Shown in pieces: positions 4,347-29,733 of a DNA stretch of 64,000 bases. Each line of letters opens with the position of its first letter. The first letter of the stretch is position 1. The stretch is from positions 372,001-436,000 of the forward strand of contig NZ_CP026100.1 of NCBI RefSeq assembly GCF_003722335.1, written 5' to 3'. Both the position numbers and the translations under genes were made by a program. Under the pieces are notes generated by a model that worked only from the letters and a program-made list of their open reading frames with translations, did no database searches and was not told the origin of the DNA. This stretch comes from Caulobacter flavus. Lineage in GTDB: Bacteria; Pseudomonadota; Alphaproteobacteria; Caulobacterales; Caulobacteraceae.

Positions 4347-4481
4347 GCATGGGCTCCCGGCGCAGGCGCTCGGTCCGATCAGCATGCTAATCGGTAGAGT
4401 TGGTGAACAGTGTGCGTAATAATGAGCACACCGCTCCGACAATGTCAATGCGTAGTGCGGTGATCTGAGTACGAGGTATCG

Positions 4482-4712: not shown

Positions 4713-4792
4713 GTTCCTAGAGCAGAGCAATTGAACCTACGTCAGTGGTTAAGCCGCGTGCCCGACTTCGATTGCGCTCGCCTATATAGGCG

Positions 4793-6355: not shown

Positions 6356-6449
6356 TGACCTCCAGGCTATGGTCGAGCGCACTGGCGTCGCGGACTCGAC
6401 CCGCGCAAATCCCAGTGTGATAGCGCGGGCCGTTTAAAGGGCCGTGCGA

Positions 6450-9178: not shown

Positions 9179-9312
9179 GGATCCCCCGTATGCTCATCGG
9201 GCACCCGCCCCCGGCACTGCTAAGCTGGCGTGGCAGTGATTGAGGGTCAACCACTGCTTGTGACGGAGGGGGTGCTACGCGTGCGGAGAAGGCTGCAGGC
9301 CGCGCTGCATCG

Positions 9313-9996
9313 CTAACGCGACGTCTGCACCGGTCGCAGGGGGACTTTGCAGGTTGAGCTTGCTCGTGCGCGGCACGCGTCCAGCGTTGCACGATTGTCG
9401 TCAGCGAACCTCAAGTCTTCGACCATGGTGCGCCAAGCCTGCGGGTTGGATTTCTCCATGAGCCGTTGTCCGGCCGACCAGCGGTCCCTTCGCAATATTG
9501 CTGCTGCAAGTCGCTCGGGGGCCTGCCAACTATCAGGCAGGACACGGGCGACGGGACCGGAGAGGCCAAGCCAAACGAAAATACCCAAAAGGAAACCGAC
9601 AGCCCCCGCACCAGATAACCATCGACGCTGCTCGCGCGCCTCGCGCGGACGCGGGATGACCTGGTCGAGGGTCCGGACGGCGTCGTCCAGTCCCCGTTGC
9701 AGTCGCGACCAATCACCCTGCGCCTCCTGACGAGCACGCGCTGTCGCGGCCTGAACCTCTCCGGCCACGCGGCTAGGTGTGAGGCTCAACAAGGGCGACT
9801 GGGCCAAGGCCTCGATACGGTTGTCTACCGCCGCGAGCTGCTCGGCCATCTTTCCCAATGTCGGACCGTAGTCGATAGCTTCGTGACGCTCTCCCGCTAC
9901 TGCGAGGCCCTCGACCGCCCGTCGTAATAGGGCGACCTCGGTCCGCAATTGGCCAAACGCTTCCTCGGCTGGATCGCCATACGCCTCGTCTGTCAC
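9313..9996 (-). CDS. DUF6118-type protein of mobilizable elements
   Basis: A 227-aa protein with an N-terminal coiled-coil-like region (EEAFGQLRTEVALLRRAVEG, then DYGPTLGKMAEQLAAVDNRI). A single membrane helix (LSGAGAVGFLLGIFVWLGLS, about residues 126-145) precedes a C-terminal domain. This layout matches the DUF6118 family, always found next to Ti-type TraA in alphaproteobacteria. The function is unknown; an inner-membrane accessory role in transfer is plausible. It lies 6 bp downstream of traA, so it is co-transcribed. Confidence 0.7.
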   Translation of the reverse strand: MTDEAYGDPAEEAFGQLRTEVALLRRAVEGLAVAGERHEAIDYGPTLGKMAEQLAAVDNRIEALAQSPLLSLTPSRVAGEVQAATARARQEAQGDWSRLQRGLDDAVRTLDQVIPRPREAREQRRWLSGAGAVGFLLGIFVWLGLSGPVARVLPDSWQAPERLAAAILRRDRWSAGQRLMEKSNPQAWRTMVEDLRFADDNRATLDACRARASSTCKVPLRPVQTSR

Positions 9997-10002
9997 GCCA
10001 CG

Positions 10003-12690
10003 CTACCTTTCCCAACCACGATCGCGGTCGCGGCTCTTAAGCGGCTCATCGCCAGGGCCACGCTCGCGATCATGATCCGTGCCCTTGGCCAAAGACCGCG
10101 CCTTCTCGGGAGCCAGCCGCTCCGCCTTCATGGCCGCCAGGGCTGCGCCCGTGCGCCCCTGGGCCGCCGCTGCCAATAGGCCAGGGCTTTTCTCCACCGC
10201 GCTGGCCAGGTGCTTTGCCGCACCCGGCCATAAGCCCGCAACCGCCTGAGCGCCGCGCTCCAGTCCAAGCTTCTGGTGCTCCAGGACCGGCAAGCCGGCT
10301 TGCCGCATACGCTGCGCGTCCATCGTGGCCGACGCGTAGGCGCGCACCGCGCGATGAGCGGTCCGTTCATCCTGGGCGATATCCGACGCCTTGCTCTGAT
10401 CGGGTTTCGGGTTGAACCCGGCGAACCGGCCCCTCCCGTCGCCAACGGCCTGACCGTCGATCTGCCGCCGAGCCGCGAAAGCGTTGGGATAGTCGAGCGC
10501 CATCTCCTTCGGCCGATCGCGGCCCAAGGTTCGCACGAGATCGCACCGCTCGGCGAAGTCCTGGCGGCTGTAGTGCAGCGCCATCCCGTCGCGGTGCCGG
10601 CTGAGCGCCACATACGCCGCGTGCCGGTCCATGTGTCCGCTGGCGAGGACATGGGTGCGATCCACGGTGACGCCCTGCGACTTGTGGATGGTGGCCGCGT
10701 AGCCGTGATCCAGATCGTTATAGGTCTTGAGATCGACGCTGATGTGCCGGCCGTCATCGAGGCGGACTCCCACCGCGCCTTGTCTGACCGTTTCGACTGT
10801 TCCGAGCGTGCCGTTCTTCACGCCCAGCGAACGCTCATTGCGCAGGAACATCACCCGATCCTGGGCGGCGAAGTCGCGCACGCCGCGCGTGGTCTTAACA
10901 CCGTGACCTGGCCCAAGCTCGCCGTCGGCCTTCATCCGCTCGCGGGCCAGGGCGTTGAGCGCTGCCACATCGTCGCGGGTGTAGGCGAGCATCATCCGCG
11001 ACGCCGTCGGATCGGCTTTGCGTTCGTTCGCCCAACCTTCGATCAAGGCGCCGCGCGCCGCGTCCTTGCTGTCATGGCCGTGGACCATGCCGGCCGCTTC
11101 ATAGGCGGCCAGCGCCTGATCCGTGCGCCCGGTCGCCAGATGTCGCGTGGCCTGGCGTTGCCAGTCCTGGCGCTGGCGACGAATCTGGCTGATCTCGACG
11201 GCGCCATGCCGCTCAGTCAGCGCGCGGAACGCCGCGCCGGCCTCGATCGCCTGGAGCTGCTCGGCGTCGCCGACCATCACCACCTTGGCTCCAGCCTTCT
11301 CGGCGTGATCCAAGACCCGCTGCATCTGTCGAGAGCCGACCAGACCGGCCTCATCGATCACCAGCACGTCGTTGGCCGACAGCTGATCGCGACCGCGCGC
11401 CCAGCCATACTCCAAACTGGCGAGCGTCCGCGACGGGATGGCCGATCCGCCCTCCAGGTTCTCGGCGGCGATGCCGGAAAGAGCCGCGCCCTGAACCCGA
11501 TAGCCCTGCGCCTCCCAAGCATCCCTGGCGACGCCCAGCATGGCGCTCTTGCCGCTGCCCGCGTAGCCGACGACCAACGCTAGCCGCTCGCGGTCGGTGA
11601 CATGATCGAAGGCGTCCCGCTGCTCCTCCGACAAGGTAAGGCCAGACGCTGTGCTCTTGGCGAGAGCGGCCTCTCGACGACCCGCGCCGATGCCATGATC
11701 GCGGCGCTCGCCCAGCGCTTGCGCCGACTGCTCCAAGCTCCGCTCGACATCGAGCATCTCGCGGCTGGTGAAGCGCTGGCGGCCCTGGCCGTCGCGGCCC
11801 AGCGCCATCAACTCCGGTGACGTCCTGATAGCGCTTCTGACCTGATCGAATTGGTCCTTGCCGTCGCTGTGGCGGTGAGCGAAGCGGGCCAGGTCGTGCT
11901 CGGTGAATGTCGCCTGCTGATGGGTAATTGCCGACAGCGCGACCCTCGGATCGGCGATGATCCGTTCGCCATTGCGCCGCGCGATCTCGCGATGGTCCTG
12001 AGCGCGCTGCGCAGCCTCGCCACGCTCATCACGGCGCGACCCGGCTGGGCCAATCTTGTCCTGCGGCTCCAAGGCGATGCCTTGGTCCTTGAACGAGCGG
12101 TGGTCGATCCGAGCTTCCAGCCCGAGTTGGGCTAGCCGCTCGTTGACATGCTCGCTCCAGGCGCCGCGCCAATGGGTGAGCAGCTCGGTGCTGTTCCAGT
12201 CGCGGACCTTGGCGCCGAACGCCGCCGATTCATCGTCGCGCAGAGCGACCTCCCGCATGGTGAGCATGACATGCGCGTGCGGCTTCGGGCTGCCATCCTC
12301 GGCGATGTCCCAATGCACGTTGAGGTCGGCGATCATGCCGCGATCGACGAACTCGCGCTGCACGAAGTCGCGAGCCAGGGCCACGCCCTGCTGCTGATCC
12401 ATCTCTCGCGGAATGGAGAACTCGACCTCGCGGGCGAGTTGGGCGTCCTTGCGCTTCTCGCTAGCTTCGACGGCGTTCCACAAATGCGCCTGATCTGGCC
12501 AAGCCTCGCGTGCCGCCTCATTGGGCGCGAGGATCTCGGAGTGAACGACGCCGGCCTTATTGGTAAAGTCGTGTGGTCGATCGAGTCGCTCGTCATGCAG
12601 ACGGGAGGCTGAGCGATACGCGGCGGCGGCCACCGCGCTGGAGCCGTTGGCGCGGCTGATCACCTTGGCTGAGAAGTGATAGATCGCCAT
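10003..12690 (-). CDS. traA: Ti-type conjugative relaxase TraA (MobQ) with helicase domain
   Basis: An 895-aa protein beginning MAIYHFSAKVISRANGSSAV, the signature of the Ti/MobQ relaxase family. Residues about 100-160 hold the metal-binding HUH-type motif (KPHAHVMLTMR), and a RecD/TraI-like SF1 helicase follows, with Walker A GYAGSGKS at residues 375-382 and VLVIDEAGLVGSRQM as Walker B. The family nicks one strand at oriT, stays covalently bound through a Tyr and unwinds the strand for transfer. It is shorter than plasmid TraA (about 1100 aa) because the C-terminal extension is reduced. The divergent traC/traD/traG operon begins 175 bp away with the candidate oriT between. Confidence 0.92.
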   Translation of the reverse strand: MAIYHFSAKVISRANGSSAVAAAAYRSASRLHDERLDRPHDFTNKAGVVHSEILAPNEAAREAWPDQAHLWNAVEASEKRKDAQLAREVEFSIPREMDQQQGVALARDFVQREFVDRGMIADLNVHWDIAEDGSPKPHAHVMLTMREVALRDDESAAFGAKVRDWNSTELLTHWRGAWSEHVNERLAQLGLEARIDHRSFKDQGIALEPQDKIGPAGSRRDERGEAAQRAQDHREIARRNGERIIADPRVALSAITHQQATFTEHDLARFAHRHSDGKDQFDQVRSAIRTSPELMALGRDGQGRQRFTSREMLDVERSLEQSAQALGERRDHGIGAGRREAALAKSTASGLTLSEEQRDAFDHVTDRERLALVVGYAGSGKSAMLGVARDAWEAQGYRVQGAALSGIAAENLEGGSAIPSRTLASLEYGWARGRDQLSANDVLVIDEAGLVGSRQMQRVLDHAEKAGAKVVMVGDAEQLQAIEAGAAFRALTERHGAVEISQIRRQRQDWQRQATRHLATGRTDQALAAYEAAGMVHGHDSKDAARGALIEGWANERKADPTASRMMLAYTRDDVAALNALARERMKADGELGPGHGVKTTRGVRDFAAQDRVMFLRNERSLGVKNGTLGTVETVRQGAVGVRLDDGRHISVDLKTYNDLDHGYAATIHKSQGVTVDRTHVLASGHMDRHAAYVALSRHRDGMALHYSRQDFAERCDLVRTLGRDRPKEMALDYPNAFAARRQIDGQAVGDGRGRFAGFNPKPDQSKASDIAQDERTAHRAVRAYASATMDAQRMRQAGLPVLEHQKLGLERGAQAVAGLWPGAAKHLASAVEKSPGLLAAAAQGRTGAALAAMKAERLAPEKARSLAKGTDHDRERGPGDEPLKSRDRDRGWER

Positions 12691-12721
12691 CGCGGCGTTC
12701 CTTCAGCTTCAACCTTCGTGC

Positions 12722-12749
12722 ACGTCGGAACGACGTATAAGCGCGCACT
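12722..12749 (+). other. candidate oriT: inverted repeat plus MobQ-type nic sequence
   Basis: In the traA/traC divergent gap there is a perfect inverted repeat ACGTCG-GAA-CGACGT (12722-12736). One base later comes TAAGCGCGCACT (12738-12749), which matches 10 of 12 positions of the RSF1010-type nic region TAAGTGCGCCCT as I recall it. Ti-family elements keep oriT in exactly this gap. The strand and exact nick are not determined. Confidence 0.5.
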
Positions 12750-12865
12750 CCGATCGAAGATCGGCCTGACTTGCTGCACACGGCGACTTTAAACAACTTG
12801 CGCGGAAGCTACAACCTTTGGTATTTGTGGCGCGGGGCGGGCTCCATCGCAGGAGGCCTTGAGCT

Positions 12866-13174
12866 ATGCGCAAACCCCGCGACATCGACGCCGAGCTGAC
12901 GGCTCTGGCGGCGAAGGCGAAACAACTCAAAAGCCAGAAGATCAAGCAACTGGGCGAACTCGTCATCGCCACGGGTGCCGACGAACTCGACCCGGAGGTC
13001 TTGGCCGGCGCGCTCCTGACGGCGAAGGCCTCCAAGGACGTCAAGTCGCGGGAGGCCTGGAAGTCGGAAGGCGAGGCCTTCTTTCGCAAGGGCGCTGGCC
13101 GCAAGCTGGCGTCGGCGGCTGCTGGTGACGGTGCGGGCGCTGGCCAAGAACCTGGCACTGGTGCGACGGGCTGA
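12866..13174 (+). CDS. TraC-like conjugal transfer accessory protein
   Basis: A 102-aa basic helical protein (MRKPRDIDAELTALAAKAKQ, then LGELVIATGADELDPEVLAG). It occupies the traC position of the Ti-type traCDG operon. Its relatives are small DNA-binding relaxosome accessories that assist TraA at oriT. The last residues, rich in Gly/Ala, overlap the next gene by 50 bp, which supports coupled translation. Names in databases vary between TraC and TraD for this protein. Confidence 0.7.
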   Translation: MRKPRDIDAELTALAAKAKQLKSQKIKQLGELVIATGADELDPEVLAGALLTAKASKDVKSREAWKSEGEAFFRKGAGRKLASAAAGDGAGAGQEPGTGATG

Positions 13175-13451
13175 GGCCGTCGCCGCGCGCTTCGATACGA
13201 GAGCCTGGGTCGTGCAGCGCCGCGAGCGCACACATCACCTGATCGAACTTGGCGGCCTCGTCACCAAGGCCGGCCTAGTCGATCTCACCGACGACGACCG
13301 CGCGGCCCTGCTAGGCGGACTGCTCGAACTTGCCGACCAACTCCAGGACGCCGGCCGCGCCGACGTGCTTGCGCGGTGGCGACATCGCGGGCGGCACGTC
13401 TTTGAAGCCGATGCGCAGAACGATCGGGCGGAGCATGAGGCGGCGACATGA
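13125..13451 (+). CDS. traD: TraD-family conjugal transfer protein
   Basis: A 108-aa protein with the TraD family core: RRERTHHLIELGGLVTKAGL, then VDLTDDDRAALLGGLLELA. It belongs to the small Ti-type TraD family (not the F-plasmid coupling protein). The start is GTG 13125, inside the end of the preceding gene, and its stop overlaps traG by 4 bp. It probably helps relaxosome formation. Confidence 0.8.
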   Translation: MTVRALAKNLALVRRAEAVAARFDTRAWVVQRRERTHHLIELGGLVTKAGLVDLTDDDRAALLGGLLELADQLQDAGRADVLARWRHRGRHVFEADAQNDRAEHEAAT

Positions 13452-15016
13452 TCCGCACCATCACCCTCGTCGGCGCGATCCTGCTGGGCCTGTTCGTCGG
13501 GCGACTGATTGGCGGCTTCGTGCTCACCGTCATCGCCGCCGTTGGGCCGGTCGGGCCGGGCATGAGCATTCCGGTTCTCGTCGTCACGAGCCTGATCGGC
13601 GGTCTGATCGGTTTTCTAAGGTGGCGGCGCTGGTGGCCGGAGGGCGCGGTCTCCGACGCGCACGGGTCGGCTCGGTTCAGTCGCGAGGATGAGATCGCCC
13701 GGACGCTTGGTAGCGACGAGGGCCTGATCGTTGGCCGCTCGATACGGGGCAAGCTTCTTCGCTACAATGGTCCGGCGCACCTTCTGACCATTGCGCCGTC
13801 GCAGGCGGGCAAGGGCGTTGGGACGATCATTCCCAATCTACTCACCTTGCGCCGCTCGGTTCTCTGTGTGGATCCGAAGGGTGAGAACACGCGCATAACA
13901 GCGGCGACGCGCGCGCGAATGGGGCCGGTGTTCGCGCTGGATCCGTTCGACGTGTCGGGCCAGCCGTGCGCGGCGTTCAATCCGCTCTCAGCGCTGGACC
14001 CTGATAGCCTCGACCTTGTCGACGACGTGTCGGCGATCGCCGAGGCGCTGGTCTACGATCCACCCGGCCAAACCGGCGAAGCGCACTGGAACGAGGAAGC
14101 CAAGGCGCTGATCTCCGGCGTCATCCTCCATGTCGTGACGACGGCACCCGTCTATCTGCGCAGCCTGATCACGGTGCGGGATTTTCTCACCGCTGCGCCG
14201 GACGCCTTTGCGAAGATGCTGAAGGCAATGCAGGACAGCGGCGCGGCTGGCGGCCTTGTCGCGCGCGCGGCCAACCGCCATCTCGGCAAGAGCGATCGGG
14301 AAGCCGCGGGCGTGCTGTCCGCAGCGCAGCGGCATACCCACTTCCTCGACAGCCCGCGCATGGCGCGGGTGCTGGGGCGCTCGGATTTCTCTCTGAGCGA
14401 ATTGCAAACCGGGCTGGTGAGCGTGTTCCTGGTTCTGCCGCCTGAGCGGCTGCGAACCCATGCGCGCTGGCTTCGGCTGATGGTGGTGCAGACGATTGGG
14501 GCTTTGGCGCGCGGGCCGGTGGGGGCGGAACGCGACGGGCCTGACGTACTGCTCATGTTGGATGAGTTCTCCGCCCTTGGATATCTGGAGCCGGTCGAGC
14601 GGGCGTTTGGCCTCATGGCAGGGTATGGCCTCCAGATCTGGGCAATCCTGCAGGATCTTCACCAGCTCAAGAGCGCCTATGGCGATCACGCCGGGACCTT
14701 CCTGGCCAATGCCAGGGTCATTCAGGTTTTCAACGTCGCCGACATCGACACCGCGACCTGGGTCTCGCGGTCGATGGGCGTCACGACCGAAGTTTACAGC
14801 ACCAGCGGCCAGTCAAAGACTCAGGCCGGCGACAAGCTCTTTTCGACGCATGGCAGCTCGACCAACGTCAATCTCGCGCGTCGGGATCTCGTCACGCCGG
14901 ACGAGGTCATGCGGATGGATGGCGCGTCGCTGATCCTGCTCCGGCCCGGCGCGAGCCCTACGCTAGCGCGGAAGGTTCGCTACTATGCAGACGCTGAGTT
15001 CAAAGGCCTGTTCTGA
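13448..15016 (+). CDS. traG: TraG/VirD4-type coupling protein
   Basis: A 522-aa protein with two N-terminal membrane helices (residues about 5-25 and 32-58). Walker A in the family form APSQAGKGVG and Walker B LLMLDEFSALG follow, then NVADIDTATWVSRSMG near the C-terminus. It couples the TraA-DNA complex to a type IV secretion channel and powers DNA export. It is shorter than plasmid TraG (about 640 aa), chiefly at the C-terminus. No VirB/Trb genes accompany it, so the element must borrow a channel. Confidence 0.9.
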   Translation: MIRTITLVGAILLGLFVGRLIGGFVLTVIAAVGPVGPGMSIPVLVVTSLIGGLIGFLRWRRWWPEGAVSDAHGSARFSREDEIARTLGSDEGLIVGRSIRGKLLRYNGPAHLLTIAPSQAGKGVGTIIPNLLTLRRSVLCVDPKGENTRITAATRARMGPVFALDPFDVSGQPCAAFNPLSALDPDSLDLVDDVSAIAEALVYDPPGQTGEAHWNEEAKALISGVILHVVTTAPVYLRSLITVRDFLTAAPDAFAKMLKAMQDSGAAGGLVARAANRHLGKSDREAAGVLSAAQRHTHFLDSPRMARVLGRSDFSLSELQTGLVSVFLVLPPERLRTHARWLRLMVVQTIGALARGPVGAERDGPDVLLMLDEFSALGYLEPVERAFGLMAGYGLQIWAILQDLHQLKSAYGDHAGTFLANARVIQVFNVADIDTATWVSRSMGVTTEVYSTSGQSKTQAGDKLFSTHGSSTNVNLARRDLVTPDEVMRMDGASLILLRPGASPTLARKVRYYADAEFKGLF

Positions 15017-15028
15017 AAGCCACCGGCC

Positions 15029-15562
15029 TCATCGAGCCCAAAAGACGTGGAGCTCGTCATGAGCTGTCCGGAGCGTGAAGACGTCCCCGCTCAGCTCCGC
15101 GTCTCGTGCCATGGCTTCGTAGTCGATATAGAGGCGAAGGGCCTCGGGGATCGCGACCGTCTCCTCTGTTAGTTCCTGGAAGTAGTCGGAGAGGCTTTCG
15201 TAGGCGCCTCGATACCCGTCATCCAGCGCCGCGTTCGCGTCGTCGATACTCCCGCCGAGATGAGCGAGCGCCAGCGCGCCAAGCTGGCCACGCTCGCGCA
15301 GGAAAGAAGCGATCTCGACGACCCGGCCGATGTGCTCGTACTCGCCGATGTTCACGCCGCCAAAGCCGTCATGATCGTGGATGGCGAATTCCTCTGCGCC
15401 GGCGACGGGGGAGGCGTTCAGCATGGCCGCGATGGCACCCCTTACGACATCCTCGTCCTCGACTTCGATCCAGGCTCCGTGGAGGCGGCCTGCATTATAG
15501 GCCGCCAGACAAGCGACGTAGATCCTGGGCGATCGCAGGTTCGCTACGCTGGCCATGGTCAT
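15029..15562 (-). CDS. ardA: antirestriction protein ArdA
   Basis: A 177-aa highly acidic protein. It begins (after a possible alternative start at 15556) with PRIYVACLAAYNAGRLHGAW, has GAEEFAIHDHDGFGGVNIGE and EYEHIGRVVEIASFL in the middle, and contains the ArdA segment SLSDYFQELTEETVAIPEAL. ArdA mimics B-form DNA and blocks type I restriction enzymes, protecting incoming mobile DNA. It is convergent with traG (12 bp apart). The family assignment is firm. Confidence 0.9.
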   Translation of the reverse strand: MTMASVANLRSPRIYVACLAAYNAGRLHGAWIEVEDEDVVRGAIAAMLNASPVAGAEEFAIHDHDGFGGVNIGEYEHIGRVVEIASFLRERGQLGALALAHLGGSIDDANAALDDGYRGAYESLSDYFQELTEETVAIPEALRLYIDYEAMARDAELSGDVFTLRTAHDELHVFWAR

Positions 15563-15760
15563 CTCCTTCGGTCGTTGGGTTTGCAGACGCTAGAGGCGCG
15601 TCTGAAACCCGACGCCCGTCGGCGAGACCGGGGGTGCAAGTGGAGGAGCGGCTTCGCGGGGAACCAACTGCAGGCCCGGTGGGCCGAAGGTGGGCGGAAG
15701 TCGCTTCGCAGCGCGCTGGGGGCTGGCCCCAAGCTATTTCCAATTGATCCGGCCGCAGCC

Positions 15761-16024
15761 AATCCAAACCCAAAAATTCGTGAGGTATGGGCCGGAAAAT
15801 TTGTCTTTACCGGTCGCGGAGCAGTACCTGGATTGCTGCCCCACGGTCCGCACAACGTCCGCGACGTCCTTGCTACGCATATCCTGAAGCAGACTGGCTC
15901 TCACGAGCAGGCCAGCTACGCCATCCAGGACACGCCAGAGACTATCGCCGAGCACTATGGGCATTTCCTGCCTCAGGATAAGCCCGCCCTGGCAGCTCAG
16001 GTGCTCAATCAAGTTTGGCGGCAT
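15761..16024 (+). pseudogene. remnant of a tyrosine integrase (C-terminal end)
   Basis: In one plus-strand frame, about 85 residues match the end of phage-type integrases. The segment HNVRDVLATHILKQTGSHEQ followed by ASYAIQDTPETIAEHYGHFL carries the H..R..ATH motif and the terminal EHY tyrosine region. The N-terminal two thirds and the catalytic Arg I are missing, and the upstream sequence shows no integrase similarity. It ends about 57 bp before the tRNA-Leu 3' end, the usual place for an integrase of a tRNA-integrated element. It is therefore the scar of an earlier insertion. Confidence 0.7.
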
Positions 16025-16080
16025 AGCGCCCATCAGAGCGGACGACGCGGCAGCTGCGTTGTCCGCTCACGCCGTGGAGT

Positions 16081-16384
16081 TGGTGCGGGCGGCCGGGATC
16101 GAACCGGCATAGCCTTGCGGCTGACGGATTTTCATACCACTTCGACTTTCGCCGCCGCAGGGCCGTGGCGCTGCGTTCGTGGTCTGGACTATCCCTTCGC
16201 CGTGCCCCGAAGAGGGGTTTAGGCGCCGCCCGTCTAGTCTCTACACCTTCCCGCAAGGGGCTTGGCTCGGGATCGCCATTTTACAGGGTTCCCCGAATTT
16301 GAGCGGTTCTACGTCCTGGATTTCCCCAAGCGCACTCAATCCTTGGCTTAAGTCCGTTGCGTCTACCAGTTTCGCCACGCCCGC
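16081..16384 (-). tRNA. tRNA-Leu(UAA) interrupted by a group I intron, carried by the island
   Basis: Exon 1 is 16384-16350 (35 nt, acceptor GCGGGCG, ends GGACTT). Exon 2 is 16132-16081 (52 nt, starts AAAATCCGT, ends CGCCCGC ACCA). Together they give an 87-nt tRNA with an 8-base-perfect acceptor region, an ACGGA/TCCGT anticodon stem and loop CTTAAAA, so the anticodon is TAA. The intron sits after U34, the same position as the cyanobacterial and plastid tRNA-Leu introns. It differs from the split host tRNA-Leu at five exon bases, and those in stems are compensated. Because the host copy is cut in two, this is the only complete tRNA-Leu(UAA) in the window. Confidence 0.9.
16133..16349 (-). ncRNA. 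group I intron (tRNA-Leu type, 217 nt)
   Basis: On the minus strand the intron starts AAGCC and ends GGTATG with the required terminal G. The 5' exon end ACUU pairs with GAGU at intron positions 13-16, giving the obligatory U.G pair at the 5' splice site (P1). Core elements are visible: AGAGACUAGACGG with GACUA pairing to UAGUC in GGGAUAGUCC (P7), GAUCCCGAGCCAAGCC (P4/P5-like region) and a CCCC-UCUUC-GGGG hairpin (P8). The order and wording of these blocks closely resemble cyanobacterial tRNA-Leu introns (subgroup IC3). No open reading frame lies inside, so there is no homing endonuclease. Self-splicing is inferred. Confidence 0.88.
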
Positions 16385-16399
16385 CTAAACCGAGGCGAG

Positions 16400-17611
16400 C
16401 TATAGTCGGCCCGGCGCTGAGCGTCGAGCCTTTCGCACGGGCTTTGCCGATTTGCGGTCTGCCCGCTTCGCATCGCCGCGATCCCTTCGAACATTGACTG
16501 CAGCGGCGTCGATGACGTCCTTGATATGTGCTGCGTAGAAGGTTTCGATCATCTCGACGCTGGTGCGGCAATTCTTGGCGACCTGATAGATATCGGCCCC
16601 CTCGATGAGGCGCATGCTGATGTACGTATGTCTGAGGCTATAGGCTGTCCTCCGCCGGCCCTCGCGATCGAACTTGAGGTCTATCGCCTGAAGCGTGGCA
16701 TTCAATGCGGAGCGCAGCGGGATAGGAAAGAGCCGATCGGTTGGCTGGCCGTCGTAGCGTTCTCGCAGTCGTTGGAGCGGCACGACGGCGCCTGGCATGC
16801 TCTTGCACCAGCCGACGCCCCGCTTGCCGCGAACAGCGATTTCGAGAATTTGGTCTCCAGTTGTTTGGTCCAGCACGATCGCGACATCGCGATACTCCAG
16901 GTGCGAGGCCTCATCGGGCCGCAGTCCCGTGTTGACCATGAAGAGCACGAAATCATGCAGGTCCTTCGCGGCGGGCAAGGCGCCGCGAGCTTGCGCCTGC
17001 TGGCGCGTCGTCGTGTAGAGAAGCTTATAGTCGTCCGGTGATAGCCAAGCCCGGTGGGATACCTTCGACGAGCCACGAAAAGGCGTTGATAGATCTGGAA
17101 GTTGGTCTAGCCAGCGACGACGGTTTGCGGCCTTTAGGACCTGGCGCAGGCATACGATCTCCTGGTGCAGGGTGCTGGCGGCGGGAGTCCTTCCTGAGCT
17201 GCCCGGACGGAGGCGATGGATGCGGTAGTCCTGCACCATGCCCGCCGTGATCTCGCCGAGCACGGTGTCGCCGAAAAATGGAACGAGATAGTTGGCGAGG
17301 CGTGCCCGGTGGCCCTGGACGTAGACCGGGCTCCTCTCGCCTCGCGTGATCACCTCGAACTCGTCAATGAAGCGTTCGGCCGCCTCGGCGAACGTCTTGC
17401 CAGGCTTCAAGTCGCCGACGCGGTATTTTCCCAGGAGGCCCAGGTACCAGTCCTGCGCAAAGTCCTTGGCGCGCGACAGGCTCTCCTCGTGGGTTGTCAC
17501 GCGACGCTGGCGGCCGGCGACCGTGCAGGAGCATTGCCAATGGGGACTACCCGGTCGTCGGTAGATCTGGACCCGACCGTCTATCAATGTGTGACGCGCA
17601 GCTTCCGGCAT
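16400..17611 (-). CDS. tyrosine site-specific integrase
   Basis: A 403-aa integrase. An N-terminal arm/zinc-like segment (QIYRRPGSPHWQCSCTVAGR) and a core-binding SAM-like domain (about residues 70-150) are followed by the catalytic domain: NTGLRPDEASHLEYRD (Arg I), YSLRHTYISMRL (His-x-x-Arg region) and the terminal tyrosine segment VEMIETFYAAHI. It is homologous along its length to the integrase at 38142-39521. Its stop lies 15 bp upstream of the 5' end of the intron-bearing tRNA-Leu. It could drive the right arm alone or be a vestige of a fused second element. Confidence 0.88.
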   Translation of the reverse strand: MPEAARHTLIDGRVQIYRRPGSPHWQCSCTVAGRQRRVTTHEESLSRAKDFAQDWYLGLLGKYRVGDLKPGKTFAEAAERFIDEFEVITRGERSPVYVQGHRARLANYLVPFFGDTVLGEITAGMVQDYRIHRLRPGSSGRTPAASTLHQEIVCLRQVLKAANRRRWLDQLPDLSTPFRGSSKVSHRAWLSPDDYKLLYTTTRQQAQARGALPAAKDLHDFVLFMVNTGLRPDEASHLEYRDVAIVLDQTTGDQILEIAVRGKRGVGWCKSMPGAVVPLQRLRERYDGQPTDRLFPIPLRSALNATLQAIDLKFDREGRRRTAYSLRHTYISMRLIEGADIYQVAKNCRTSVEMIETFYAAHIKDVIDAAAVNVRRDRGDAKRADRKSAKPVRKARRSAPGRL

Positions 17612-17798
17612 GTCGCCGACCTAGATACTGGCACGCTAAGGCGCGAGCGGAATGGTGAACTCTATCCAGGATGGCGCAATTGGCCAGGGGCAACGCAGCC
17701 CGCTAAGGCATGCGACCGTTTCGGACGTATGGGTAACGCAGGTTCGGATCGCGAGGCGACATCACAGTCGCTTCTCTCAATGAAAGAGGGCGGTCGCG

Positions 17799-19235
17799 GT
17801 GGGCTTGCAACTAGAGGAAAAGTGCGCTCCCAGGCTAGACCTTTCGCGCATGAACCTAGATTGTGCCTCGGGGGCGCTTGGATGGCTTGCTAGCAAGGAA
17901 ATATCCTCCCCCAGATCGAATCGATGTGGGTGCGAATTGGGTACGGGTTTGGCTAGCGAGGAAAACGCTCCGGTTTTCATTGATGCCTTCGCGGGATGCG
18001 GTGGCCTCAGCCTCGGCTTGCTTAGGGCCGGATGGCGGGGATTGTTCGCCATCGAGAAGGATGCCTTTGCGTTCGAAACGCTGAAGACCAACCTCATCCA
18101 TGGCCCACGGCAACGTTTTGCCTGGCCGAGCTGGCTTGAACAGCAGCCCTGGACCATCGAGTCCTTGATGGAAAAGCACGGCGCCGAACTCGGCAAGCTG
18201 CGCGGGAAGGTGGACCTGCTAGCGGGCGGGCCGCCTTGCCAGGGCTTTTCGAGTGCGGGACGGCGGCGGCCGGGAGATCTCCGCAACCAACTCGTGGAGC
18301 GCTACTTGGAGTTTGTCGAGCTGGTGCAGCCCGGCATGGTGTTGATCGAGAACGTCCGGGGCATCACGTACGATTTTGTCAGCACGGACGAGGAAGGCGA
18401 AGGCGAAACCCGACGCAACTTCGCCGAGGAATTGCTGTCGCGCCTGGGGCAACTCTATCACGTGTACTACGACACCATCCGGTGTTCGGAGTTCGGTGTC
18501 CCCCAAAAGCGTCCCCGCTTTTTCGTTGTCGGAATCCTCAAGTCTCCAAAGGCGAAGCGGCTCCCCAAGGGGCAGGACCCGTTCGCCCGGCTACGCGGCG
18601 GCAAGGTCAAGTTCCTGGAGCGAAAGGGACTCAAGCCGCAGGTCAGCTGCAAGCAGGCTATTTCCGACCTTGAGATCGAGCACGCCGGCAAGATCGAGAG
18701 CCCCGATACGAAGGGTTACGAGGCGATCAAGACTGCGTCTGCAAAGACAGATTACCAGCGCGTGATGCGCGATGGCCATGTCGGGCCGCTTACGGACACG
18801 CGCCTAGCTCGTCACCGACCTCATATCGTCGAGCGGTTCGGAAAGATCATCGCCGAGTGCAAGGCAGAGGGGCGGCTTAGCGTCCAACTGAACAGCGAGA
18901 TGCGAAATCGCCACGGCATCAACAAGATGGCGACCCGGGTCCTCGACCCTAGCTTGTGCGCTCCCACCATCACGAGCATGCCTGACGATCTCCTCCACTA
19001 TGCTGAGCCTAGGACGCTCACCGTCCGGGAAAACGCGCGACTGCAGACCTTCCCCGACTGGTTTGCATTCCAAGGCAAGTACACGACCGGGGGAGAGCGC
19101 CGGGCGCGAGAGGTGCCCCGGTTCACCCAGGTCGCCAACGCAGTGCCGCCCCTGATCGCCGAGATGTGGGGCCAAGTCCTGTTGTCCTACGTGAAGGAAG
19201 CCTCAGCGTTGCGCCGACTCGACCAGGCCGCATGA
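17799..19235 (+). CDS. C5-cytosine DNA methyltransferase (Dcm type)
   Basis: Catalytic core: motif I FIDAFAGCGGLSLGLLRAGW, motif IV GGPPCQGFSSAGRRR with the nucleophile Cys (residue 147 from GTG 17799), motif VI LIENVRGI, motif VIII QKRPRFFVVG and terminal motif X VANAVPPLIAEMWG. It transfers methyl from SAM to C5 of cytosine. The target domain between VIII and IX is long (about 170 aa). The first 50 residues before motif I look non-conserved, and ATG 17850 is another possible start. It overlaps the ATPase gene by the ATGA motif, the first of four coupled junctions in this operon. Confidence 0.92.
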   Translation: MGLQLEEKCAPRLDLSRMNLDCASGALGWLASKEISSPRSNRCGCELGTGLASEENAPVFIDAFAGCGGLSLGLLRAGWRGLFAIEKDAFAFETLKTNLIHGPRQRFAWPSWLEQQPWTIESLMEKHGAELGKLRGKVDLLAGGPPCQGFSSAGRRRPGDLRNQLVERYLEFVELVQPGMVLIENVRGITYDFVSTDEEGEGETRRNFAEELLSRLGQLYHVYYDTIRCSEFGVPQKRPRFFVVGILKSPKAKRLPKGQDPFARLRGGKVKFLERKGLKPQVSCKQAISDLEIEHAGKIESPDTKGYEAIKTASAKTDYQRVMRDGHVGPLTDTRLARHRPHIVERFGKIIAECKAEGRLSVQLNSEMRNRHGINKMATRVLDPSLCAPTITSMPDDLLHYAEPRTLTVRENARLQTFPDWFAFQGKYTTGGERRAREVPRFTQVANAVPPLIAEMWGQVLLSYVKEASALRRLDQAA

Positions 19236-21316
19236 GCGACAGCGGTCCGCCTCCTCCATTTCCAGCGCAGCTCCGCAACTGGAGCGGCCATCGCTCCGGC
19301 GGGGTGCGCCGGTTGTTCGACGATGCAAGCGGGCGCCCCGGGGAGGTCGTGTTCAACACGAGCCTGCTCGCCCGCCTCCGGGGCTGGGCCGCAGCCCATG
19401 CGAACAGGACGCCATCGACCCCCCGCCTCGTTTTGCTCGTGGGAGGCCCGGGCAATGGCAAGACGGAAGCGATCGAGTCGACCATCCGGTGGCTCGACGA
19501 GGAACTTGGCTCCGACGCTCGGCTCGTTGAGCAACTGAGGCCGCAGTACAATCCTCCCGACGGCCTCGTCCCGCGCGTGGCCCAAGCCTCCCTTGGTTCC
19601 GGGCGGTCGCTGGTCATTGTCCAGGATGCGACCACCGTCATTGCGCCCGAAACGCGCACGGCGGCACAGCTGCTGCTCGCCGAGCTCGAAGTTGCGCTTG
19701 CGCAGCCGAGCGAGGCCTACCTCTGCTGCGTCAACCGAGGGGTCCTCGATGATGCCCTCGTGGAGGCCATTGATACTGGCGCAACCGAAGTCTGCGCGTT
19801 GCTCGAAGCCGTCACGCGCGCTGTTGGCCTCTTTCCGGATGCATCCGCCTGTTGGCCGCTGGACAAGTTTCCCGAGGTCAATGTCTGGCCGATGGATGCC
19901 GAGAGCTTGCTTCTTCCCTCCGAAGAGGGAGGGGAGCCTCCGGCCGCCTCGCTATTCGATGCAGCGCTGGAAGCTCGAAAGTGGCCGGCACAAGGTACCT
20001 GCGCGGCTGGGGCCTGGTGCCCATTCTGCAATAGCAGGGAGCAGCTATCCCGTGAGCGGGAACAGGCTTCGCTGCTTCGCATGCTGCGGTGGTACGAGGT
20101 CGCGTCCGGCAAGCGGTGGAGCTTTCGCGACCTATTTTCCCTCGCCTCCTACCTTCTGGCGGGAGGGCACGCAGACCAAGGAAGCAACTCGTCCCCGTGC
20201 GAATGGGCGAGGGACCTGATCGCCCGGGACGAAGTGGCGAAGCGCAAGGGCAAGCCGACCCAGGCTTCGTCCACTGCGATCTTCCAACTTGCCTCGGCCC
20301 AGTACCAGCACGCCCTTTTCCATTCTTGGCCGCAAGATGCAGGGCCAAGGCTCCTTCGTGACCTGAAGGACCTTGCCCTCGATGACGACAACACCGGCAT
20401 GGGCCTGGCCTGGTTCCTCCAGGGACGCCGCGCGCAATACCTCCCGACGGTGATCAGTTCGGCGCTGGAGGGCGTCGTCGAGATCATGGATCCGGGACTG
20501 GCGAGCCCAGACGTCAAGGTCCAGGCCACCTTGCGGACCGCGTTCTGGCTGCGCGACATCGACGTGCGATTCAGTCGGTCCGTAAGCGAAGGCCTCGACT
20601 ACGTCCGGCGGCAGCAGGTGCTTTCGAAGGTCGAGGTCGAGTTGCTTGAGCGCCTCTCCGCGCTCGACGCCGAACTCTCGCGGCCAGCAGTTCGCCGAAA
20701 GCGTCCGGCTGTGGCGACGCGAGTCCAGCGCCTTGTACGCGACTTCGCTTGCCGACTGGTTCGACGTGCGTTGGGCGCTCGCACCGCGTCGGTCAGGGAC
20801 GCCAATCTCCTGGACGAATTCCAGCGCGTCCTTGAGGACGCCAGCGGAGACGAACTCTATGACGTCGCCCTGGATGTCGAGAAGCTGCTGAACAACAACC
20901 AAGAGTTCGAGATCTCGCTTACCACAACGTTCGGCCAGCCGCTTCCACCGCCGATGCACCGGGCGACGCTCGTCGTACCGGCCAGACCAGTGCGAGCCTA
21001 CGACGCCGTTGCGTTGAACAGGCCCAAGACCCCGATCGCATTCCTCCGGGTCGGGCAGGGGGCGTCCGCAAAGTCCATCGCGCTGACCTACGAGCTTTTC
21101 CGTGCGGTGAAGGAGCTTAAGCGCGGGCTGTCGCCAGCCTCGTTGCCTCGTACCGTCCTCGCGCTCCTGGACACGACCCGGGCGCGCTTGTCTGGACCGA
21201 TCGTTCGCGATTGCCAGATCCTGGAGCGTGCTTCCATCAAGATCGGCGAAGGCGGCGTCACGGTGAGCGAACGGCGCCAAGGATTTGCTGCGCGGAAAGA
21301 GGAGCCGGGCCGGTGA
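19232..21316 (+). CDS. large P-loop ATPase of a restriction-like operon (DptF-like by position)
   Basis: A 694-aa protein starting at ATG 19232 in an ATGA overlap with the methyltransferase. Walker A is LVGGPGNGKT (core G71-T78), and SLVIVQDATTV is a Walker B candidate. A Cys-rich segment (CAAGAWCPFCNS, about residues 255-266) could bind zinc. The remaining two thirds is helical and matches no family I can name. Size, first position and partnership with a 500-aa protein and a giant HerA-like ATPase parallel DptF/DndF of phosphorothioate-dependent restriction. That parallel is inference from gene order. Confidence 0.7.
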   Translation: MSDSGPPPPFPAQLRNWSGHRSGGVRRLFDDASGRPGEVVFNTSLLARLRGWAAAHANRTPSTPRLVLLVGGPGNGKTEAIESTIRWLDEELGSDARLVEQLRPQYNPPDGLVPRVAQASLGSGRSLVIVQDATTVIAPETRTAAQLLLAELEVALAQPSEAYLCCVNRGVLDDALVEAIDTGATEVCALLEAVTRAVGLFPDASACWPLDKFPEVNVWPMDAESLLLPSEEGGEPPAASLFDAALEARKWPAQGTCAAGAWCPFCNSREQLSREREQASLLRMLRWYEVASGKRWSFRDLFSLASYLLAGGHADQGSNSSPCEWARDLIARDEVAKRKGKPTQASSTAIFQLASAQYQHALFHSWPQDAGPRLLRDLKDLALDDDNTGMGLAWFLQGRRAQYLPTVISSALEGVVEIMDPGLASPDVKVQATLRTAFWLRDIDVRFSRSVSEGLDYVRRQQVLSKVEVELLERLSALDAELSRPAVRRKRPAVATRVQRLVRDFACRLVRRALGARTASVRDANLLDEFQRVLEDASGDELYDVALDVEKLLNNNQEFEISLTTTFGQPLPPPMHRATLVVPARPVRAYDAVALNRPKTPIAFLRVGQGASAKSIALTYELFRAVKELKRGLSPASLPRTVLALLDTTRARLSGPIVRDCQILERASIKIGEGGVTVSERRQGFAARKEEPGR

Positions 21317-22815
21317 GCCTCGATAAATTCCACGAGGAGCCCTGGAAGACCTCCCATCGGACCTACGAGACATCGGCACTGGCGATCGCGCCGGCACCGG
21401 AATACGCGAGTTCGGAGGTCCTACTTTCGTCCCTCTACCGTGCAGTCGGCTTTGAGGGACACTCCGAGAGTTCAGTTCCTACGCGAGGGCGAGAGCTTGA
21501 TCGCGATGTTCTCGCTTTCCGGAACAAGCGGGAACGAAAGACGGGGGCCGTGCTGGACGCGGATTCCCTGCACATGATGCTGCACTCGGCATTGGAAAGT
21601 CCGAAGCTTCCAAACCAGTCGGCAAAGCGCTTTCTACAAGTTACGCCGCTCGTGCCGCAGGTGGCGGTGTTTTCCGGCTCCGCGCGCCTTGCCGGCAACC
21701 CCTGGCCTGCGGGTGCGCTGGTGCGCCGGATGATCTGGCTTGGAGCGCGGGACGCCGTTGAGGCCGCCGGTGTCTGGGAAGGCCTGTTTGAAGCGCTCTC
21801 CGTGAGCGCCGACGATGATGTCTTCGCGCGCTTCCTACAGGCCGAACTGGCCACCTGGGCGCCGGAACCTCAATGGGCCAGCTCCGAACCAAAGCCGCTT
21901 CCCGTCCTTCGCCATGAGGATCGAGAGGGCCTGTCCTATCCCGCCCGTCAATTCGTGACCGACCTCCAGGCCATTGTTGCGGCCAAGACCGCCATGACGC
22001 GGCGGCAGTGGACGAGTCTTCTCGAAGCCATCGTTCGGATCGGCACCGTCTCGCATGTGCTTTGGCTATGCGATGTCCACGACAACATGTGGTCGATGGT
22101 TCGGCGCTCGGCTACGGGCGACTGTCCTGCTGATGTTTCGGAAGTCCGGACGCTTCTGTTTGGCCGTCGCGCGGGCCGGCTACCCTATGGCGACCGAGCA
22201 CTTCCTTTGGCCAAGGACAGGGTCTCGGCCTTCCTTCAAGCGCGCCTAGGGCTGAACCAAGTCCTGTGGGCGCTTGAGGCGGCGGGCGGCCTGTCGGGAG
22301 GGCTTTCGACCTCCGAGGAAGTGTTCCAGCTTTGCGAAGCTGCTCGCGATGCTGCGGCGCGTGACGGGGCAGAGGCCTTGCTGAGCGGGCTTTCGGAGAC
22401 GCGAGAGCGTGAGAACCGGACCGTGCTCTGCCGCAAGGGCATTGGCTCGAACCTCCTTGAGTTTGTTCGCCACGCCCTTGGCCAGCGCCAGACGGCGAAC
22501 GCAGCGCTGCGGGGCTACGACCAAGGATTTGTCCTGCGAAAGAAGGGGGCGGCAGCATCGAGCCCGTGGATCGTTTCCCTGGGACCCGTTGCCGTCCTAG
22601 CGCTCGTGCACTGCTCCTTGGCCAAGACCTCGGGGCCACGCTCCGTCCGGTACCTAGCCCAACACATGTCCGGCTACGGCATAATGATCGACCATCAGGA
22701 AATCGCCGAGAGCGACCTCGGTCACCAACTACGCATGCTCGGCTTGGTGCTGGATAGCCCCGACGCGGAGAGCGGAATGCTCCTGGTGCCACCGTTTGCG
22801 GAGCAAGCCGCTTGA
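21313..22815 (+). CDS. unknown protein, middle member of the ATPase operon (DptG-like by position)
   Basis: A 500-aa soluble protein from GTG 21313 (4-bp GTGA overlap with the ATPase stop). It starts SLDKFHEEPWKTSHRTYETS. It has no P-loop, nuclease motif or membrane segment that I can see. Regions such as RRQWTSLLEAIVRIGTVSHV and GVLLVPPF-like endings suggest a helical scaffold. Its place between the two ATPases recalls DptG/DndG, an adaptor of similar length. The function is unknown. Translational coupling on both sides argues for a fixed stoichiometric complex. Confidence 0.65.
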   Translation: MSLDKFHEEPWKTSHRTYETSALAIAPAPEYASSEVLLSSLYRAVGFEGHSESSVPTRGRELDRDVLAFRNKRERKTGAVLDADSLHMMLHSALESPKLPNQSAKRFLQVTPLVPQVAVFSGSARLAGNPWPAGALVRRMIWLGARDAVEAAGVWEGLFEALSVSADDDVFARFLQAELATWAPEPQWASSEPKPLPVLRHEDREGLSYPARQFVTDLQAIVAAKTAMTRRQWTSLLEAIVRIGTVSHVLWLCDVHDNMWSMVRRSATGDCPADVSEVRTLLFGRRAGRLPYGDRALPLAKDRVSAFLQARLGLNQVLWALEAAGGLSGGLSTSEEVFQLCEAARDAAARDGAEALLSGLSETRERENRTVLCRKGIGSNLLEFVRHALGQRQTANAALRGYDQGFVLRKKGAAASSPWIVSLGPVAVLALVHCSLAKTSGPRSVRYLAQHMSGYGIMIDHQEIAESDLGHQLRMLGLVLDSPDAESGMLLVPPFAEQAA

Positions 22816-25800
22816 GTTCCATTGCCTCAACCCTTGCCGGCCTGATCCGCGAACGCGTGACGGCGGATGCGCAGGACGCCTCCGCAGAGATCCGCCTGAT
22901 CTTCCATGGCCCACCGCTGGAAATCCTGGACGACGTCTTCGCTGCATTGGAAGCGGGCGTGGCCGAAGGGCGTGTCCCCGTGGTCCTCCAGGTGCCTTCG
23001 CTCGCACCAGGAGAGCCGAACCCACCGATTGGCCAGTCGGGACGTTGCAACGAAACTCACCTCCTGAATCTCCGCAACTCCCCTGCGGAGCCAAACTACG
23101 TGGCATTGGTTCCTCCGGGACGACATGCAATCAAGTCGATCGCGACCACCAGCGGGGACTTTGGCGTCGCGGTTGCGAACAACGCCGGCAACGCACCCTT
23201 TGAAAACTGGTGGGGAGATGCGTTTGTCCAGGAACTCGTCGGCCGTGCGATCCGAAGCATGGGCTTTGGTGAGGACGAGGAGGAAGCTGCCCGTTCCATC
23301 GTCCAGAATGCTGCGGAAGCGGCCGACAGCGTAGAGGCCATGCGGGAAGCCAGGATTGGAGCCTGGCGCGTGATTGCGAGACTTCATGCCGCCGCTAGCG
23401 GGCCGGCAGGCCTGACCCCAGCCGGCCGGCTGGCGCTGGCATGCGGGGTCCCGCCGATGGCTGGCGGCGCTTTCGATGCGAAGGCCCAGCTCTCGACCCT
23501 GGACAAGCTCGCCGACGCCCTGAGCGAGGGCTTCTCGACGGGCATTTCAAAGGCGATCGAGACTGCCGGCGGCGCGGACGCAGGCAATCTCGCCAAGTTC
23601 CTGTCCCATCTCGAGGGTGTCTGCGAGCTACCGACCTCGTTCGAGCGATCTCCGGCCGCGTACTATGTTCCCACGACGGGGCGTGACCTGCCGGATCCCC
23701 CAGTGTGGTGGACCTTCCTGACCGTCGAGAAGTGGGCCGAGTACCTCGCGGAGGAAAGCGCCCAGGCTGGCGACATCGTCATGTCGTGCCTCAATGCCCT
23801 CATGCCTGTCTCCAAGGGCATGCCCATCCTGGTGGAAGGCGAGGTAGAGCTAGGCTTCACTACTGTCGGCGGCACGGGCTCGGAGGTCCTCGTCACGATC
23901 GAGCGGACACCGGGTGGTCCCGAAGGCAAGCAAATCGGCGAGATTACTCCCGACACCGGACAATACTTCGTAGACGACGCCCCGCCCGTCCACCGCGCAC
24001 CAATGCGCTACGTGGCAAGCGCGGATGGCTTCAAGCCTGGAACCCTCAAGGTCGTATCAATGGCGACATGGGGGCCTGGCCTCTATGTGGCCTGCCGGGG
24101 CGCCAGGAAGTTGTCGCCCCCCAAGCGCCGGAAAGGCAAGCGCGGCCCCGAGTATGAGGCGGGCCTCATCGTGTCGGGCGCCGGTCGCTACGAGCTTCTC
24201 CTGCTGGCCTCGCCGGGCGTGACGATCCATGACACGGCGATGGGAAGCACCGACGACGCTGCCGAACGAGGCGATGTCGCGCACCAGCTTGCCGTCCGCA
24301 CCGGTGCGCACTTCAAGCACCTGGAGATCGAGACAGACGGCAACTATCAGGTCGACATCGGCTTCGAGCGGGAGGGCTCGGACGGCAAGAAGACGACGGA
24401 AACTTGCCGCGTATTCCTGACTGTCGAGGAGGTTGCCCAGCAAGGCTGCAGGAGTGAGTTCGAGCGGCTGATCAGGGCCAATCGAAGGGTTCTCCAGCCG
24501 GCTGACGCGAAGCCAGTCATCAATCCCAACCGATATGCACGGTCGACGACGCTCCAGGAATGGATCATCTCGTCGGAGGCGGTGGCTCGCTCCTACCTGC
24601 CATCCGTGCTTGGGGAAGACTATGTTGACGCATGGGCCCAGCCATCCTGGAGCGAACGTGGCCCAATCTTCTCGACCGGCCAGTTCCTGAAGGATCCCCG
24701 TCCAAGTCCCGAAGAGTTCATCCCGCCAGAAGGCTTCGTCGAATCTCGCGAGCTGATCGCCTCCCGGATCCGGGGCGGCGGGGACGAGACGGGCGTCATC
24801 GAGATGGCCCAACTCGGACGCTGGCTCATCGACGATGCCGAGTTCAAGGCTGCCGTCGAGCTATACCTCTCGGCATACAACACCTGGCTCGCCAACGATC
24901 CGGATGTTGCTTGCTGGGTCGACGCCATTGTCGTGGCGTCTTTCGAGCACGATGGCCATACCATCTCGCGCACGCCGGACGCGATCCTCCTGTCGCCGCT
25001 CCACCCGCTCCGCATCGCCTGGCACTGCGTCGCGCAACAAGTCCTGCGAGAATCCGAGCTGACCGAGCGGCCGTGCCCCGCTGCGAGCGTCTTCGACCCT
25101 GATTGTGTGCCCGACATCCTGTCCCTGGCACTCCGTTCGCCTGCCGGCATCGACCACGTCGACTTCGTCGCTGTCGAGAATGGCACCGACTATTGGTCGG
25201 TCCTTTGGAATGGAAGCAAGCTCAAGGGCCTCCCCGAACGGTCGAGGCGCGCGCCCTTTGGCGAAGCCTTCGGCGTCACGGTCGGAGGGATCTCTGCAGG
25301 ATTCAGCGCAGCGCAGGTCGGGCGCGCCCTTGAGGATGTTTCTGACCTCCTCGCGGCCAAGCCTGCAATCGGCGTCGCGGTGGCTAGCGCAGGCGGTGCG
25401 ACCGATGCATGCAATGAAGGCCTGATCAGTTGGACGTCCGATCGCTTTGGCGAGAGTGATCGCAAGCCGCCGGTCCTGGCGGCCGGATCCCGTGTCGTCG
25501 AGATCTTCGACGATCGCGCGGCGACGGCTCGGCCAGACGACGCCACGATCGCCAACCTGTCCGAGGATACGAACAATTGCGTCCGTTGGTTCGTTGGGCA
25601 GCCTCAGGGCGTGGTCCCCGACCTCGGCATCATCGCCCAGCTCGACATGTCCGAGCCAGAAACCATTCCAGTCGCCAACCGGACGCCCATCGGCTTGGGC
25701 GGCCTGATCCGGCATCGAGTTCGCCGACAACTGCCGGGCCATTTCCTGAGCGAGTCTCGGCAGGCGCTGCCTGGTCCCAAGACCGGGGATGACCTGGCCG

Positions 25801-28250: not shown

Positions 28251-28256
28251 GAGACG

Positions 28257-28703: not shown

Positions 28704-28752
28704 TCCAGGATGCTAAGGGTACGGTCGTGGCGATGATCCTCTTGGAATCCTC

Positions 28753-29725: not shown

Positions 29726-29733
29726 GAGACGCT

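Follow-up and report, generated by a model that had tools for sequence, protein, structure and literature searches.

The 64,000-nucleotide stretch of Caulobacter flavus DNA analysed here (contig NZ_CP026100.1, positions 372,001 to 436,000; hereafter the window) contains a mobile island of approximately 36 kb that splits the host gene for tRNA-Leu(UAA) in its anticodon arm, leaving a tRNA half at either end. Within the island lies a complete tRNA-Leu(UAA) gene (the cargo, or spare, tRNA) that is interrupted by a group I intron (Table 1). The guanine-plus-cytosine (GC) content of the island is 0.636, compared with 0.71 and 0.68 in the flanks. The two pieces of the host gene (39564-39523 and 3481-3423, both on the minus strand) have CGGACTTAAAATCC in common and, when joined by script, give an intact intronless tRNA-Leu(UAA), the stem bases of which differ from those of the cargo tRNA, yet pair. 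ARAGORN calls a tRNA at neither island junction and the host gene is not rebuilt at either end, which rules out a conventional island that rebuilds its target tRNA.

Table 1. Features of the island and of its attachment (att) sites, in window positions
Feature	Position	Strand	Basis or remark
Mobile island	3468..39536	.	Split tRNA halves, synteny of flanks, GC content
att core and 3' half of broken host tRNA-Leu(UAA) (attR)	3423..3481	-	94% to cargo tRNA
9-bp core GACTTAAAA in attR	3471..3479	-	Sequence
Two TGTGCTA repeats (3518, 3530)	3518..3536	+	Candidate arm-type sites
MobA/MobL relaxase-helicase	10003..12690	-	Pfam MobA_MobL, E 1e-65
TraG-type coupling protein	13448..15016	+	Pfam T4SS-DNA_transf, E 8e-76
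Cargo tRNA-Leu(UAA), 3' exon, 52 nucleotides including CCA	16081..16132	-	ARAGORN on joined exons
Group I intron, 217 nucleotides, last base G	16133..16349	-	Rfam Intron_gpI; alignment and covariation, 20 copies
Cargo tRNA-Leu(UAA), 5' exon, 35 nucleotides, ends at U34	16350..16384	-	ARAGORN on joined exons
Int1, tyrosine recombinase	16400..17611	-	PHROG integrase, E 4e-32; ends 15 bp before cargo tRNA
Int2, tyrosine recombinase beside attL	38142..39389 (open frame up to 39521)	-	PHROG integrase, E 7e-26
Three TGTGCTA repeats (39412, 39433, 39444)	39412..39450	+	Candidate arm-type sites
5' half of broken host tRNA-Leu(UAA) and att core (attL)	39523..39564	-	95% to cargo tRNA nucleotides 1-42
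9-bp core GACTTAAAA in attL	39526..39534	-	Sequence; length from L162 versus L174

The joined exons of the cargo gene (16384-16081, minus strand) are recognised as tRNA-Leu(UAA) by ARAGORN, which makes no call at this position when run without its intron option. The intron aligns with the Rfam Intron_gpI model over its full length (positions 1-253) with 41.9 bits (E 2e-9), below the gathering score of 50, and is the sole match to this model in the genome (5.66 Mb, single contig). Some relatives exceed the gathering score (7 of 398 genomes of the host order and 15 of 49 genomes in a second set), for example the intron of L080 with 61.8 bits (labels of this kind are our own). All 20 copies in an alignment retain a U-G pair at the 5' splice site (columns 35-50), within a P1 helix in which ACUU^AA pairs with UUGAGU, as well as a terminal intron G before AAAA, and 27 of 82 pairs, tRNA stems included, have changed on both sides. 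A single-strand fold of the intron alone scored no better than shuffles (z -0.26) and was dropped as evidence. The intron is predicted to be self-splicing and the cargo RNA to be spliced to a working tRNA. The introns of cyanobacterial and plastid tRNA-Leu(UAA) genes share the same insertion point, after U34. An earlier note, made from the letters of the window alone, had described the cargo gene at these coordinates, the split host gene, a distinct tRNA with compensated stems and a 217-nucleotide intron after U34, all of which are confirmed by ARAGORN, Rfam and the sequence.

The same note took the integrase core to be 14 bp long, and here it has to be corrected. Relatives share only about 9 bp, and the core is exactly GACTTAAAA in L162, where each of the two tRNA halves matches an intact relative with 100% identity; the 14 bp in the window represent this core and further matching bases. 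The intron splits the 9-bp core in the middle (GACTT^AAAA). The cores of attL and attR are themselves intronless and the intron is found only in the spare, unlike the archaeal type with an intron-bearing attP. TGTGCTA or its complement occurs five times in the whole window, always at the island ends and at most about 115 bp from the cores. The empty site, which the earlier note suggested looking for in close relatives, is found in the congeners L168 and L169, where both window flanks surround an intact intronless tRNA-Leu(UAA).

A search of the whole genome by tRNA scan, DNA search and anticodon calls revealed no other intact tRNA-Leu(UAA), and so the island carries the only complete copy found; the other leucine tRNAs of the genome have the anticodons UAG, CAG, CAA and GAG. 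The UUA codon is read only by the tRNA with the anticodon UAA. We consider it probable that the island split the host's only tRNA-Leu(UAA) gene and carries its replacement, and that the intron, lying inside the 9-bp core, shields the DNA of the spare from the island's own integrase. With the spare, the cell would still be able to decode UUA. Once the island is integrated, the spare and attL would flank the integrase gene (int) as direct repeats; were the core intact in the spare, recombination there could remove int through the action of its own product or let the circle enter at the wrong site. The intron would remove the core from the DNA of the spare while the exons stay native and the RNA can still become whole.

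The two tyrosine recombinases of the island, Int1 and Int2, are paralogous (56% identical), and Int2 begins approximately 137 bp inside attL. Int1 has no Pfam match of its own, 16 of the 20 members of the Int1 alignment match Phage_integrase, and a search of the PDB with Int1 gave no match. The genomes of L017, L018 and L019 show the same order, attL-Int2 followed by Int1-spare, with attL and the intron 13, 25.6 and 2.9 kb apart, respectively. We saw no core upstream of Int1, either in the window or in these three genomes, and a tandem-element history for the two integrases was dropped for this reason. From its position and the adjacent repeats, Int2 is favoured as the integrase that acts today. 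The gene for Int2 contains three of the nine TTA codons present in the 6781 codons of 11 island genes, so that Int2 could be translated only with the tRNA whose host gene is lost on integration. UUA decoding could in this way feed back on the island, as would suit an intron that acts as a switch on tRNA supply, with splicing as a sensor, and provides no shield. The small number of TTA codons in these island genes argues against such a switch, as does the lack of any sign that the position of the core would matter to it, and we give this explanation very little credence. A remnant that by eye resembles the C-terminal end of another tyrosine recombinase lies at about 15830-16020 (plus strand), convergent with the spare tRNA; it has no Pfam, NCBIfam or PHROG match.

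Relatives of the integrase were collected by a profile scan of genome contigs with the integrase alignment, and the family sample consists of the best 80 of at least 527. The counts include near-copies (L034/L040/L049, L027/L028, L073/L086, L060/L064/L065, L069/L074, L053/L056 and L038/L042), which make the Fisher values given below too small, since these assume independence. A complete tRNA is located downstream of int, on the same strand, at 59 of the 80 loci (median distance 98 bp) and upstream, the conventional place, at 13 (Phe, Arg and Met); at the other eight the same scan found no complete tRNA near int. As the genome background is only 54 tRNA hits in 5.66 Mb, these neighbours are not there by chance. 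The downstream tRNAs comprise 33 intron-bearing Leu(UAA) and 22 intronless Leu(CAA), together with one each of Leu(CAA) with an intron, Tyr, Leu(UAG) and intronless Leu(UAA). ARAGORN called 28 of the 33 intron genes Leu(UAA); its Ser or Phe labels for the other five (L023, L026, L047, L052 and L079) were rejected and these were re-read as Leu(UAA), a shorter D loop having shifted the splice point.

The 5' half of a broken tRNA, with the core, was recognised upstream of int by a strict regular expression at 47 of these 59 loci, usually some 170 bp away. Among the 12 that the expression missed (L017, L018, L019, L029, L037, L039, L045, L051, L053, L056, L080 and L094), L017-L019 do possess the 5' half, farther from int. 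Spare and core have the same anticodon letters at 46 of the 47, the exception being L035, with a Leu(CAA) spare and a CTTAAAA core. Family loci are found in the Pseudomonadota and, as metagenome-assembled genomes (MAGs) only, in the Acidobacteriota, Planctomycetota and Bdellovibrionota. In a tree of the integrases (quick method, SH-aLRT only), well supported branches force at least seven changes of the intron label. The element at L020 (9832-17170) packs both tRNA halves, int and an intron-bearing spare into about 7.3 kb and is a convenient minimal example. At L201 a family integrase is flanked on both sides by tRNA-Met(CAT) (1290-1366 and 2932-3008), perhaps an intermediate between restoring and replacing forms.

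The survey of related islands suggested by the earlier note showed that an intron-bearing spare and an interrupted host tRNA occur together at 29 of the 47 loci with both parts. In all 29 the exons, if joined, would recreate the element's own attL core, and in none is this core held in the DNA of the spare. The DNA of the 18 intronless spares holds the attL core in two cases (L067 and L082) and lacks it in 16 (Fisher 1e-10, the rows not being independent). L090, the sole Leu(CAA) spare with an intron (Intron_gpI, 51.1 bits), likewise has exons that match its own core. Of 27 further loci scanned, 16 have an intron-bearing spare together with an attL core that could be read, and every one of the 16 has the core in its joined exons but not in its DNA; 14 of these are new, L138 being the same place as L163 and L106 having the coordinates of L072's genome. 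The other 11 (L194-L199, L201, L202, L120, L122 and L156) lack one part and were unusable. An intron would be superfluous for elements in which the core of the spare is mismatched. The idea of the earlier note that the intron confers self-immunity, a putative role, draws strong support from this correlation.

The relation between intron genes and intact native genes was followed across genomes of the host order. Because a DNA search using the tRNA sequence evaluated few candidates in each genome, native genes were counted with a sequence pattern instead; this pattern requires C32 and misses genes with other bases. Of 398 genomes, 37 contain the intron (33 among the 353 good ones; the filters may lose weak matches) and 333 contain an intact intronless Leu(UAA). 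Among the good genomes the intact gene is present in none of the 33 with the intron versus 305 of the 320 without it (Fisher 4e-35, independence assumed). Rescue by the cargo tRNA, as the earlier note had proposed, appears well supported by this near absence of coexistence and by the lack of a second intact copy in the C. flavus genome. Among the family loci, the group I intron model matches 31 of the 32 genomes checked for their intron-bearing Leu(UAA) spares (the 33 loci yield 32 genomes, as L051 shares a contig with L049; the order sample includes L019 and L072 as well). Of the 16 genomes checked for their intronless spares, 9 contain an intact Leu(UAA). The model also matches 5 of these 16 genomes (L029/L075, L045, L056, L060 and L088).

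An integrase gene adjoins 10 of the 37 intron genes of the order, and the remaining 27 have none next door (up to 20 kb around each was examined). Six of the 27 keep parts of a broken host gene with E 1e-9 or better: L143 and L162 both halves, and L145, L157, L158 and L163 the 5' half. A short piece is seen at L156 with E 0.001; chance matches occurred at 4 of 19 native control loci, none better than E 0.001. At L140 the expected position holds an integrase fragment. On their left side L149 and L153 run straight into the native flank, and on their right they carry additional sequence of about 2 and 7 kb, respectively (L142 is less clear), a layout that would be expected if the 5' half and the 5' exon of the spare had recombined, deleting int. 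The remaining loci show no trace of an island, and some of these genes may be of chromosomal origin. Ten intron loci have at least 14 flank open reading frames (ORFs) in common with a native locus, and in every one the exon sequence departs from that of the native gene compared, so that the gene rather than the intron alone appears to have been exchanged. Once an island decays, the host would have to keep the intron-bearing spare, and the lineage would be left without an att core in that gene. In the genome of L186 (G392) about 730 kb separate the intron-bearing gene from the 5' half of the broken tRNA, so a rearrangement or a second event is indicated.

A number of observations weigh against replacement with shielding of the spare. 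Isotype is confounded with the intron, which is present in 33 of 34 Leu(UAA) spares and in 1 of 23 Leu(CAA) spares, and intron lineage could for this reason explain much of the pattern. Intronless spares with an intact core exist, namely L067 and L082 and, outside the regular expression and judged by eye, L029, L053 and L056. Natural Leu(CAA) genes vary at position 32, which makes mismatched intronless spares weaker evidence; U32 in an intronless Leu(CAA) spare was not accepted as showing that the core is broken, because natural Leu(CAA) genes share it (about a quarter of genes, counted by eye among the matches listed). An intact gene and the intron coexist in 2 of the 37 intron-bearing order genomes, both MAG-like and 83-86% complete, and an intact Leu(UAA) accompanies an intron element in 4 of the 32 family genomes, all MAGs. 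In the window itself, the spacing between flanks and tRNA differs from that in L168 and L169 by 1-1.5 kb on each side. The 5' exons of L140 and L156 are identical to those of an intronless congener (the flanks not being shared), as intron gain would give. Finally, most of the 27 intron genes examined that lack an adjacent integrase show no half of a broken gene, and several sit at the native locus.

The near confinement of the intron to Leu(UAA) spares would be expected if the P1 pairing fits only that exon, and this lends weight to the chief competing explanation, in which the replacement tRNA is real and the intron is a passenger: Leu(UAA) genes would carry their group I introns after U34 independently, and the core would simply be the same conserved anticodon loop. 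The mixing of element and non-element copies in the intron tree also suits a passenger. This explanation sits poorly with the prevalence of native intronless genes in the order, none of which accompanies the intron in a good genome, and with the manner in which intron presence tracks the identity of exons and core, including in the Leu(CAA) spare of L090; we therefore regard it as unlikely, although the most serious of the alternatives. The same mixed tree, the many intron genes without an integrase next door and the native-like 5' exons of L140 and L156 would agree with an intron-bearing gene that is an old chromosomal one in some lineages, protects the host from these integrases and was captured later by elements. 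Several such loci turn out to be islands after all, as judged from the broken halves and the integrase fragment described above, and L149 and L153 (L142 less clearly) look like islands that have lost int, which makes an old chromosomal origin improbable. The possibility raised by the earlier note, that the intron-bearing copy is the ancestral gene, is contradicted at the six loci that keep broken halves and favoured by several that occupy the native locus with no trace of an integrase. Replacement together with shielding of the spare remains our preferred explanation.

Among other genes of the island, those for mobilisation are listed in Table 1; no phage structural genes were found among 25 ORFs scanned with Pfam (24 in the island, a subset of its ORFs). 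A cytosine DNA methylase (17799-19235, plus strand) is followed by large ORFs, the last of which (22812-28250, plus strand) resembles DndH (PADLOC, E 2e-71), and these may form an island-borne defence cluster. An AAA ATPase, an IS481-like transposase and a serine resolvase follow one another at 29734-33016 (minus strand), likely a transposon within the island. The frame of a chromate transporter (33677-35236, plus strand) probably has its true start further downstream, because a chrB-b RNA motif (33757-33807, 43.2 bits) lies inside the start of the open frame. Outside the island, two identical tRNA-Arg(ACG) genes in opposite orientation are found 8 kb apart (46518-46591, minus strand, and 54405-54478, plus strand), one of which adjoins a tRNA-Arg(CCG).

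Replacement of a host tRNA by an integrating element has been demonstrated experimentally as the tRNA-dependent lysogeny of mycobacteriophages (Guerrero-Bustamante and Hatfull 2024, PMC10865867), where related integrases switch between rebuilding and replacing the tRNA. The island resembles these phages in having a tyrosine integrase by the att site, a short core, a tRNA that is not rebuilt, a cargo tRNA of the same isotype and no other host gene for it; in phage Gaia a Leu(CAA) tRNA is likewise located downstream of the integrase gene. The mycobacteriophage examples are temperate phages of Actinobacteria, whereas here we describe a mobilisable island belonging to a family in the Pseudomonadota and, from MAGs, other phyla, and in the available text of that paper an intron is not mentioned in connection with the spare, the word appearing only in the reference list. 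In two strains of Sinorhizobium meliloti, prophages disrupt tRNA-Leu(UAG) and carry a functionally similar tRNA (PMC11476347); the word intron is absent from the text of that report. Anticodon-centred att sites are common among the 2083 islands listed by Islander (PMC4383910), which rebuild the tRNA at one junction as the window island does not.

Blocking of integration by a tRNA intron at an att site has been proposed for Archaea (Sugahara 2012, PMC3293823, citing Randau and Soll). The archaeal proposal is similar in that an element-borne intron protects against later invaders and a tRNA fragment is left nearby. The archaeal intron is of the bulge-helix-bulge type and lies inside attP at one locus, in contrast to the group I intron in a separate spare with intact attL and attR cores seen here. 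The group I introns of cyanobacterial and plastid tRNA-Leu(UAA) concern the same tRNA, but a chromosomal or plastid gene and no spare of an element (PMC4476775, PMC3984707). A search by title or abstract, mostly outside the subscription literature, found no description of a group I intron in the replacement tRNA of an element. The claim of the earlier note that no precedent exists consequently falls for tRNA replacement and for the blocking of integration by an intron, both of which are published, and holds, for the sources as far as they were available, for a group I intron that shields a spare. The replacement step is already known as tRNA-dependent lysogeny; the putative role of the intron in shielding the spare from the element's own integrase is new in the literature searched.

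Replacing rather than rebuilding the host tRNA occurs in an integrase family well beyond the phages of Actinobacteria. A wider proposal, for and against which we find the case evenly balanced, is that recombination targets are shielded at the DNA level by self-splicing introns: elements that disrupt a host tRNA would guard their spare against their own integrase with an intron absent from the mature RNA, and after the decay of such islands the spare with its intron would remain and leave the lineage immune, in that gene, to the whole integrase family. If true, this would provide a selectable job for group I introns in bacterial tRNA genes, which are usually regarded as neutral passengers, and could explain the patchy occurrence of the intron in the host order. 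The proposed role of tRNA introns as guards against integrating elements would then become directly testable in bacteria, where spares with and without an intron provide natural matched pairs within one integrase family.
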